40,455 nt of DNA. Source: Spirochaetaceae bacterium. GTDB taxonomy: Bacteria > Spirochaetota > Spirochaetia > DSM-27196 > SLAA01. The translations under genes and the position numbers were made by a program. The stretch spans positions 1 to 40,455 of the forward strand of contig PUOW01000218.1 of the NCBI GenBank assembly GCA_003552185.1, written 5' to 3'. The notes beneath the pieces are model-generated. The model did no database searches. It worked only from the letters and a program-made list of their open reading frames with translations, and was not told where the DNA came from. Below, in pieces: positions 11,993 through 15,252 of the stretch; the stretch's first letter is position 1; each line of letters opens with the position of its first letter.

Positions 11993-12358
11993 CTACCCAA
12001 TGAGCTTCCGAACCACCCCAAGCAGCTTGTCGGAATCAAAGGGTTTGACGATCCAACCGGTTGCACCGGCGGCTTTGCCTTCTTCCATCTTGGACCCCTG
12101 TGCTTCGGTTGTAAGCACGATAATGGGGGTGAACTTACCGTCGGGTCGCTCGCGCACCTTCTTCACAAGCCCGATCCCGTCGAGGTTCGGCATATTCACA
12201 TCGGTTACGATGAGATCAAATGAGTCGCCGTCGAGCTTCCCGAGCGCGTCGACTCCGTCCTCGGCGGCCGTAACCCCGTAACCGGCCTGAGTTAATACAT
12301 AGGTAACGCTTTCCCTAATCGCGCTCGAGTCATCGACTACCAGAACGTTCTTCGCCAT
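11993..12358 (-). CDS. Single-domain response regulator, CheY type
   Basis: A 121-residue stand-alone receiver domain. The acidic pocket is Asp9/Asp10 (VLVVDDSSAIRES), the phosphoacceptor is Asp53 (VTDVNMPNLDG), the switch Thr is in IIVLTTEAQ and Lys105 is in WIVKPFDSDKL. All residues needed for phosphorylation are present, so it is probably active in chemotaxis or another phosphorelay. ATG 12358 has GAGGGG upstream and gives the normal CheY length. No kinase or che gene lies nearby. Confidence 0.93.
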   Translation of the reverse strand: MAKNVLVVDDSSAIRESVTYVLTQAGYGVTAAEDGVDALGKLDGDSFDLIVTDVNMPNLDGIGLVKKVRERPDGKFTPIIVLTTEAQGSKMEEGKAAGATGWIVKPFDSDKLLGVVRKLIG

Positions 12359-12392
12359 GCTGCTCCCCTCACGTTTCGCTGTTACGCTTCCT

Positions 12393-12421
12393 ATTATGGT
12401 GGACAAGCGCTTCACCCGCAA
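12393..12421 (-). promoter_or_regulatory. Putative promoter of the CheY gene
   Basis: Minus-strand TTGCGG (12416-12421) and CATAAT (12393-12398) are 17 bases apart; the -10 box is 35 bases before the start codon at 12358. Confidence 0.5.
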
Positions 12422-12499
12422 GGGAGCGCAGCGCCGTTCCTGCCCTGTTCCCCGCGAATCTTGATCCACACCGCGGAAGGTGGGTTAAACGAGTGAGGC

Positions 12500-13522: not shown

Positions 13523-13762
13523 ATGAGCACGCAAGCAGAAACAAAACATGCGGTGTTGGACGTGAGCGGCGGCACCTGCACATCCTGCGTTATCGCGATA
13601 GAACACCTCGGGCGCCGCGTAGAAGGCATTCACGACATCATGGTCGACCGCGGGACCGGCACGATACAGATCGAGTACGACGGAAACCGTGAAGCGCTCG
13701 ATAAGATCTGCGATTTTGTCGCGCGCATCGGTTACTCCGCCGAGATACGAGCTACGGACTAA
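13523..13762 (+). CDS. Small heavy-metal-associated (HMA) domain-like protein
   Basis: A 79-residue protein with a ferredoxin-like beta-alpha-beta pattern of HMA metal chaperones. The loop reads GGTCTSCVIAIEHLGRRVEG, giving Cys-Thr-Ser-Cys instead of the usual MxCxxC, and the second half (IQIEYDGNREALDKICDFVA, IGYSAEI) matches the HMA C-terminal half. It may carry copper or another soft metal, or a degenerate site. A TATATT lies at 13511-13516, seven bases before the ATG, which would put the transcript start close to the start codon (leaderless) if used. No metal-transport gene is next to it. Confidence 0.7.
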   Translation: MSTQAETKHAVLDVSGGTCTSCVIAIEHLGRRVEGIHDIMVDRGTGTIQIEYDGNREALDKICDFVARIGYSAEIRATD

Positions 13763-13835: not shown

Positions 13836-15125
13836 TTAGTCGTTTCCCTGCGACACGCGCAGATTGAGTCTCATAAGGCGTTGCGCAAGAAGGCGAGCAA
13901 GAAAGATGCCGTAATGCGGCTGCTTCTTGATCGCGTTCACGAAGGCGTTCTTCGAGATCTTCGCCAACACGCTTCTTCCGTTTGATATTACCGTTGCCGA
14001 ACGCCGATTGTTCAGCAAGAACGACATCTCTCCAAGAAAGATATCGTCGGGTCGAAGCGTGGTGAGGTACTTGTTTCCGGAGTAGATATCCAGGCGCCCT
14101 GAGGCAATGTAGTACAGGTAGTTCGATTCCTCTCCCTCAAAAAATACGACATCCCCGTCTTGAAACACGGCCTCCTCGCTACGATCGAAGATACCCGGAA
14201 CCACGTTGCTCTCGTCGCGCTGATGCGCCACCTCGAACGAAACCTCGTTCCCGTGTTCGTTGTAGCGCAGGTTCTCGACGTAGTGCGTGACCATTTTCAG
14301 CCCATGGCCGTGTGGGCCGAAGTTCACCGGGAGCGAAGCGGCGTGCTTCACGCGCCGTCGCCAATCGAACCCGTCTCCTTCATCGCGGATCGTGAAGTAC
14401 GAGCGCTCCGGCGTGATACGGTACGAGAACTGCACCGTTCGTTGTCTGATTTCGGGATCGGCGGACTTCCGACGAATCAAGGACAGAATGTCACCGTGCC
14501 GATCAAGCCACGCGGACTTCTCCTCGTAGCTGATACGACAGTTTCCGTGTTCAACCGCGTTCATCAGGAGCTCAAAGATCGCCACGTGCACGCGGTCCTT
14601 TTTGTCTCGGTTCACGTAGTTCGAGTTATAGAGATAGCTCGTCACGAGGTTCGCGTAGGTACGGATGTTCGACGGATCATTGTCCATCACGAGGCGCCCC
14701 GAGATCGTGCGGAGCAGATAGCTCTGCAGATCGCGTTGGAACAGAATCTGGCGGTTCTGGATGAGGATGCGCACAACCCGGTAGAAGCTCGCGACAAACT
14801 CGCCGCGCGGAATTACGCTCACGATGTTTGAGTTGGGAAGGTGCTGATGCACGCGTTGCTCATCGGCGCTGGTGTGCACCGCGACGATGCCGCCGTAATG
14901 CAACCACGGATCACGCTTGATCGCTTCAAGAATACCGTTGGTATCGATATGCTTATCTGAAGCGTTAATGAGGTTGATCTCCGGCAGCTCGTACTTCAAG
15001 TATTCCAGCGCCGCGTCGTGATCGTCGAGAAACACCGGCAGGAAAAAGTTGTCGAAACGCCGACAGATTCGTTCGACACGGTCGTTGAGTTCGCGGTCTG
15101 TGCTGATCACCGGCATCTTTCGCAT
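13836..15125 (-). CDS. Receiver-like / HATPase_c / cyclic-nucleotide-binding fusion protein
   Basis: A 429-residue cytoplasmic protein with three parts. Residues about 5-125 look like a receiver domain but the usual phospho-Asp position reads INLINASD, so it is probably a pseudo-receiver. Residues about 150-300 form a GHKL ATPase of the anti-sigma/serine-kinase type: N-box FELLMNAVEHGN (184-195), G1 DEGDGFDW (248-255), G2 GHGLKMV (273-279); no phospho-accepting histidine box precedes it. Residues about 318-420 form a cNMP-binding domain with the phosphate cassette GEMSFLLNNRRSATV (365-379; Glu366 and Arg375 kept). It may sense cAMP, cGMP or c-di-nucleotides and act on a partner protein. GGGAGG lies 12 bases before the ATG; Met4 is an alternative start. 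Confidence 0.85.
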   Translation of the reverse strand: MRKMPVISTDRELNDRVERICRRFDNFFLPVFLDDHDAALEYLKYELPEINLINASDKHIDTNGILEAIKRDPWLHYGGIVAVHTSADEQRVHQHLPNSNIVSVIPRGEFVASFYRVVRILIQNRQILFQRDLQSYLLRTISGRLVMDNDPSNIRTYANLVTSYLYNSNYVNRDKKDRVHVAIFELLMNAVEHGNCRISYEEKSAWLDRHGDILSLIRRKSADPEIRQRTVQFSYRITPERSYFTIRDEGDGFDWRRRVKHAASLPVNFGPHGHGLKMVTHYVENLRYNEHGNEVSFEVAHQRDESNVVPGIFDRSEEAVFQDGDVVFFEGEESNYLYYIASGRLDIYSGNKYLTTLRPDDIFLGEMSFLLNNRRSATVISNGRSVLAKISKNAFVNAIKKQPHYGIFLARLLAQRLMRLNLRVSQGND

Positions 15126-15145: not shown

Positions 15146-15188
15146 TAGAGCCGCTCTATCTGGAGCTGCTCTAACTAGAGCTGTTCTA
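15146..15188 (-). promoter_or_regulatory. Three phased palindromes upstream of the signalling fusion gene
   Basis: Three 13-base sites at 15146-15158, 15161-15173 and 15176-15188 repeat at 15-base steps. The first is a perfect palindrome, TAGAGC-C-GCTCTA; the others (TGGAGCTGCTCTA and TAGAGCTGTTCTA) each have one mismatched pair. They end 21 bases before the start codon at 15125, in the promoter/leader region, so they look like a multi-site operator. No known regulator motif is matched. Confidence 0.6.
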
Positions 15189-15252
15189 AAGTATTGCGAA
15201 TTTGCCGGCGATTTTCCACCCGATGCGCCTCGTACGGCGCGGGCTACGAGGC

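Follow-up and report, generated by a model that had tools for sequence, protein, structure and literature searches.

The closest solved relative of the protein described here is LvrC of Leptospira interrogans (LIC11110, PDB 9QIH, entry name 'SenB'). Its partner is the histidine kinase LvrB, which phosphorylates the canonical receiver of LvrC on D53 (PMC13269768). LvrC is structurally similar to RsbW and is probably an anti-sigma factor regulated by its receiver (PMC13269768). RsbW and SpoIIAB themselves are single domains, encoded beside a STAS antagonist and a sigma factor.

The DNA analysed here (the window, 40,455 nucleotides of a Spirochaetaceae contig) encodes on its minus strand, at 13836..15125, a protein of 429 aa with a predicted pseudo-receiver, a Bergerat (GHKL) ATPase domain and a cNMP-binding domain, as delimited by the open reading frame, Pfam, a structure model and relatives. 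As in LvrC, the receiver fold of the window protein precedes an RsbW-type Bergerat domain, which carries an ISYExK insert, and DHp is lacking. Unlike LvrC, which has no cNMP domain, it combines a degenerate receiver with an added cNMP domain. The protein shares with RsbW and SpoIIAB the Bergerat fold, the N-box Glu and Asn, the G boxes and the lack of a histidine box; however, it differs from them in the insert, the flanking sensor domains and the lack of a linked partner. Like CRP/FNR-type receptors it possesses the cNMP fold, the phosphate cassette and a C-terminal helix, but it lacks a helix-turn-helix, and its output is the Bergerat domain. Four pseudo-receiver-Bergerat proteins of other spirochaetes (L165-L168, 313-319 aa) have the same order of the first two domains, but lack the cNMP domain and fall outside the cNMP clade. 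The window protein is thus a variant of the LvrC-type receiver-Bergerat kind, kept across much of the spirochaete phylum. In the literature, we found no report of a receiver-Bergerat-cNMP protein.

Domain architecture and conserved residues

Pfam identified HATPase_c_2 at residues 149-297 (43 bits, cut-off 27.4) and cNMP_binding at residues 320-401 (63 bits, cut-off 27.5), and no family above cut-off before residue 149. The AlphaFold2 model of the whole protein (pLDDT 86.6, 52 relatives in the alignment) contains a receiver, a linker, the Bergerat domain and the cNMP domain in this order, and among PDB structures LvrC resembles it most closely in fold (Foldseek E 5e-16, 310 columns). Pfam, AlphaFold2 and Foldseek are therefore in agreement with the three domains proposed in the first-pass annotation, and the three-domain pattern is far beyond chance. 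Full-length relatives share 39-89% identity with the 429-aa protein, and its start Met is common to at least 90% of the relatives. A histidine kinase was ruled out, since Pfam and the model gave no DHp, no H box and no HisKA-type match.

The N-terminal domain comprises residues 1-123 (14757..15125, minus strand). Residues 1-128 alone were modelled with a pLDDT of 92.9 by AlphaFold2, in the order b1a1b2a2b3a3b4a4b5a5, which is the receiver topology. Their best 50 Foldseek matches in the PDB were all receivers or receiver-bearing proteins, including PhoB, DivK, Rcp1, RR468 and LvrB, with TM values of 0.6-0.8 and E values down to 1.2e-5; model and matches confirm the receiver-like fold expected for residues 1-130. 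The segment INLIN corresponds to strand b3, and, according to the alignment column, Asn54 at the end of this strand (14964..14966, minus strand) occupies the phospho-Asp position. Among 74 aligned relatives, this column contains N in 41, D in 18, Y in seven, H in five and C in three. The earlier claim that the phospho-Asp is lost from INLIN therefore holds for the window protein, with its Asn54, but not for the 18 relatives that keep Asp.

In working receivers, strand b1 ends with an acidic pair that binds Mg. In the family, the corresponding columns 8-9 were Ser/Thr or other non-acidic residues, among the residue types counted, in all 74 relatives. Judged from the alignment, loss of the acidic pair is stronger evidence for a pseudo-receiver than Asn at the Asp position, and it supports the non-phosphorylatable receiver suggested before. 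Because the pair is lost throughout, the whole family would be pseudo-receivers, even where the Asp survives. The conserved residues of the domain lie elsewhere: P48, D72 and W74 are invariant, the last two in 74/74 relatives. D72 and W74 belong to a D-P-W-L-H motif in the a3-b4 loop (14898..14912, minus strand), which is a signature of the family. The motif faces away from the former active site and may form an interdomain or partner surface.

The Bergerat domain spans residues about 140-300 (14226..14708, minus strand), as delimited by HATPase_c_2 and the match to LvrC 9qih, which is also its best sequence match in the PDB (52 bits). The N box E185-LLMN189-AVEHGN195 (14541..14573, minus strand) has invariant E185, N189, A190, E192, H193, G194 and N195, and is predicted to supply a catalytic Glu and a Mg-binding Asn of the RsbW/SpoIIAB type. 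E185, N189, the DxGxG residues D248, G250 and G252, and G273/G275 are conserved in 74/74 relatives. The nucleotide contacts are consequently kept, and the anti-sigma-type ATPase without a histidine box that had been read from the window is corroborated by its intact RsbW/SpoIIAB-type motifs and the lack of DHp. Sequence comparison placed an insert of about 35 aa, 'CRISYEEK...', between the N box and the next strand (14436..14540, minus strand; E202 and K203 invariant). LvrC has this insert too, as do many receiver-PAS-Bergerat and PAS-Bergerat proteins from other spirochaetes.

The C-terminal region, residues about 316-428 (13842..14180, minus strand), comprises a CRP-type cNMP-binding domain and a C-terminal helix, according to Pfam (63 bits) and Foldseek, with fold matches to GlxR and MtbCRP. 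No helix-turn-helix follows the cNMP domain, which ends with the C-helix alone. The phosphate-binding cassette F363-x-GEMSFLLNNRRSAT378 (13992..14039, minus strand) has G365, E366, R375 and A377 invariant in 74/74 relatives. The cassette is kept as first described, and the domain is putatively binding-competent, with cAMP and cGMP as ligands indistinguishable from sequence.

Distribution and genomic neighbourhood

The protein is not the isolated curiosity that it had been taken for, as it belongs to a family found phylum-wide in Spirochaetota. A match to the 429-aa protein, mostly full-length, was present in 56 of the 61 sampled relatives. When one genome per bacterial or archaeal species was scanned, 180 relatives were confirmed. 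The best 80 of them came nearly all from spirochaetes; the exceptions were two Chitinivibrionales MAGs and one MAG labelled Pseudomonadales. Within the Spirochaetota sample, 69 of the 296 genomes encoded a full-length member. These genome-search counts are lower bounds, because the Pfam genome search missed the apparent Treponema pallidum orthologue, which passes the cut-off in a protein hmmscan.

In a tree of Bergerat domains, a branch with support 99/98 separated all 28 cNMP-bearing proteins from LvrC, the PAS-Bergerat proteins and the pseudo-receiver-Bergerat proteins without a cNMP domain. The simplest reading of the tree is that the three-domain form arose once.

At least one class III cyclase was detected in all 69 genomes with a full-length member, versus 154 of the 227 others in the 296-genome phylum sample (Fisher p 1.7e-10, a value that ignores shared ancestry). 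Shared ancestry could account for this association. The genome of the window itself possesses seven cyclase matches, together with five STAS and six SpoIIE matches, all of them outside the window's contig, and it contains SpoIIE-STAS pairs.

A search of the window's contig matched no STAS gene, no STAS or sigma gene is linked to the family gene in the window, and the neighbour map of the family loci has no shared STAS neighbour. The remark that no anti-sigma antagonist adjoins the gene therefore stands for STAS proteins. An operon with a sigma or STAS gene was rejected, because none was found on the contig, which was searched with the STAS family, and no neighbour is constant across 81 loci. 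Neighbours differ between genomes; in the 81 loci the commonest upstream neighbour is rpsD, and some loci have an NtrC-type regulator, an NFACT or an HMA gene downstream. In the window, a 79-aa heavy-metal-associated (HMA) protein with a GGTCTSC motif is encoded convergently at 13523-13762 on the plus strand, and in about ten other loci (cluster 5) the family gene is followed by a comparable small gene on the opposite strand. A single-domain CheY-like receiver is encoded two genes downstream, at 11993-12469 on the minus strand. NtrC-type sigma-54 activators lie directly downstream in several relatives (e.g. L048, 3500-4954).

Three loci (L097, L098 and L101) carry second, more diverged copies of the family, with 46-47% identity. 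These copies adjoin a UbiB-like gene, which is also found downstream of the window's copy. The common neighbour suggests an old duplication, with one copy lost in the window genome.

Upstream regions of the family genes

The hexamer CCGATA was found upstream of 30 of the 78 family genes, where random pieces cut from these loci would give 2.6. TCAA-N13-18-CCGATA was present upstream of 14/78, against 0.18 expected. When genes were counted by lineage (under 75% identity), 15 of the 43 had CCGATA. In its strict form, T[CA]AA-N15-17-GCCGATA, the element occurred 13 times in 1.67 Mb of family loci (both strands), with 11 of the copies directly before a family gene. TCAA-N15-17-GCCGATAC precedes the family genes of loci L041-L049, L060, L063, L073, L080, L082, L091 and L099. 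L082 is from the non-pathogen Alkalispirochaeta alkalica. The same element, TCAAGTGCACCCGGCGTATTCCGATAC, was found upstream of a T. pallidum gene confirmed as flagellin. T[CA]AA-N15-17-GCCGATA is of the FliA (sigma-28) promoter type, and in many species the family gene is therefore probably expressed together with the flagellar regulon. At seven loci exactly 14 nt separate the start of the CCGATA core from the ATG, a spacing that would give leaderless or nearly leaderless transcripts.

No sigma-28 site was found before the window gene, where scores were no better than those of shuffles, nor in the window genus or most Treponema. The region before the T. pallidum orthologue gave a weak score and no sigma-28 consensus. 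The window gene and its two nearest relatives (L039 and L040) have in common TGGAAAA-N10-ATTCGYAATACT, without a sigma-28 match. In the window, this promoter-like footprint, TGGAAAA-N10-ATTCGCAATACT, was placed at 15190..15218 on the minus strand by alignment with the two relatives, and it is not a consensus sigma-28 site. A palindrome, GCTCTAGTTAGAGC, also lies upstream of the gene, with an exact copy at 15168-15181; together with an imperfect second copy it spans 15153-15181. The pair is a candidate local duplication or operator. As regulatory evidence, the palindrome was dropped, having one exact copy and being absent in sister species.

TP0995 and the predicted function

A family member is present at 1081111-1082457 in the apparent T. 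pallidum genome. In the T. pallidum Chicago strain, TP0995 is annotated as 'Cyclic nucleotide binding protein', at 1080774-1082108 (PMC3373638). TP0995 is apparently the orthologue of the window protein over its full length, with all key motifs kept according to the alignment; it differs in having Asp at position 54, where the window protein has Asn54. The literature that we found naming TP0995 reports no function for it. With family profiles and a motif scan of the apparent T. pallidum genome, performed piece by piece, the orthologue was the only RsbW-type Bergerat protein found. A HATPase_c_2 match at 562221 was rejected as RsbW, being the ATP-binding domain of a histidine kinase. The same genome possesses three STAS and three SpoIIE domains, and the SSG motif is retained in two of its RsbV-like STAS proteins. 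In other treponemes a separate RsbW is encoded next to STAS; no such RsbW was found in the apparent T. pallidum genome. In treponemes and relatives, SpoIIE-STAS-RsbW operons (L175-L184) encode an unusual RsbW of about 190 aa (EFPSDFRQIRYFTLL...); in apparent T. pallidum the STAS gene beside an Era-like GTPase is kept and the 190-aa RsbW is gone.

The motifs and the structure model lead us to propose, with moderate confidence, that the family protein is a cNMP-gated anti-sigma or serine-kinase switch of the LvrC kind, whose input has been exchanged. The first-pass idea of a kinase or anti-sigma-like ATPase under cyclic-nucleotide control is plausible and stands on firmer ground than before. The protein would be a soluble, probably dimeric switch. 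Its receiver would keep the fold without the phosphorylation chemistry and may have a structural or docking role, while the C-terminal CRP-type domain is predicted to bind and sense cAMP or cGMP. The cyclic nucleotide would plausibly replace phosphorylation as the input. Once bound, it may alter the packing of the pseudo-receiver and cNMP domains on the Bergerat domain, and this change would set the availability of the Bergerat domain for holding a sigma factor, for phosphorylating a STAS anti-anti-sigma protein, or for both. Our guess at the leading target candidates is FliA (sigma-28) and the SpoIIE-linked STAS proteins. In Chlamydia, an RsbW network is reported to be able to control a primary sigma factor (PMC4552016); the target here is accordingly not confined to alternative sigma factors.

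If the proposed switch is correct, it would connect cyclic nucleotides directly with the control of sigma factors, through the exchange of the input in a two-component/anti-sigma hybrid. The sequences suggest that cAMP or cGMP may be tied to motility or sigma-factor control. To our knowledge, class III cyclases are numerous in spirochaetes and few of their effectors are known; given a conserved effector whose gene has a sigma-28-type promoter, the connection between cNMP and motility would become testable. Such an effector would also give a concrete hypothesis for TP0995, which the literature that we found names just by the annotation given above.

A narrower reading, which we regard as a tentative alternative, is that the protein acts on single-domain STAS proteins as an RsbW-like serine kinase, with partner switching set by cNMP, and does not hold FliA. 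The invariant SpoIIAB-type catalytic Glu and Asn are consistent with it, and so are the SpoIIE-STAS pairs in the protein's own genome. Apparent T. pallidum, with its two SSG-motif RsbV-like STAS proteins and the STAS-linked RsbW missing, points the same way: being the sole RsbW-type Bergerat protein found there, TP0995 is by elimination the candidate kinase for the remaining STAS proteins. Nevertheless, this elimination argument is weak, because genomes of the family f26 (apparently Borreliaceae) keep STAS and SpoIIE matches with no RsbW by Pfam and no family member. Moreover, most relatives also have a dedicated RsbW adjoining STAS, and the family gene is not linked to STAS genes.

Transcription of an anti-sigma gene often depends on the very sigma factor that its product restrains, as for FlgM and RsbW. 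This habit, together with the 11 of 13 strict sigma-28-type sites just before a family gene, the spread of CCGATA over lineages and the shared element of the T. pallidum flagellin gene, would fit an anti-FliA factor within the flagellar regulon, a stand-in for FlgM that is released or engaged by cNMP. In the flgK region of the apparent T. pallidum genome, no FlgM-like ORF was found upstream of flgN/flgK, which also favours such a stand-in. We consider it unlikely, as a sigma-28 promoter suits any motility or chemotaxis gene, and the window genus, T. pallidum and most Treponema gave no such site. Still less probable is its fullest form, in which the whole family would be a cNMP-gated anti-sigma-28 factor that replaces or supplements FlgM, with cAMP or cGMP setting the flagellar genes directly, apparently also in T. 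pallidum.

The same sigma-28-type promoters upstream in relatives, and the CheY or NtrC-type regulators near the gene in some genomes (here the CheY described above), would equally suit a Bergerat domain that is an ATP-dependent docking module only, in a protein acting directly on the motor, chemotaxis or another enzyme; we find this doubtful, because the catalytic Glu and the G boxes are invariant and the nearest relative is structurally RsbW-like (PMC13269768). Finally, Asp54 in 18/74 members, with the T. pallidum orthologue also keeping it, would favour a receiver still controlled by phosphorylation through an unusual chemistry. We regard this as very improbable, since none of the 74 keeps the acidic Mg-binding pair and 56/74 have another residue (N, Y, H or C) in place of the Asp.

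Bergerat output domains with the ISYEEK insert and without DHp were also found in other proteins spread across the spirochaete phylum (L251-L266). The sensors attached to them there are receiver-PAS, 7TM-PAS, HAMP-PAS or NMT1-PAS, and the set is apparently a spirochaete class of non-histidine-kinase sensors.
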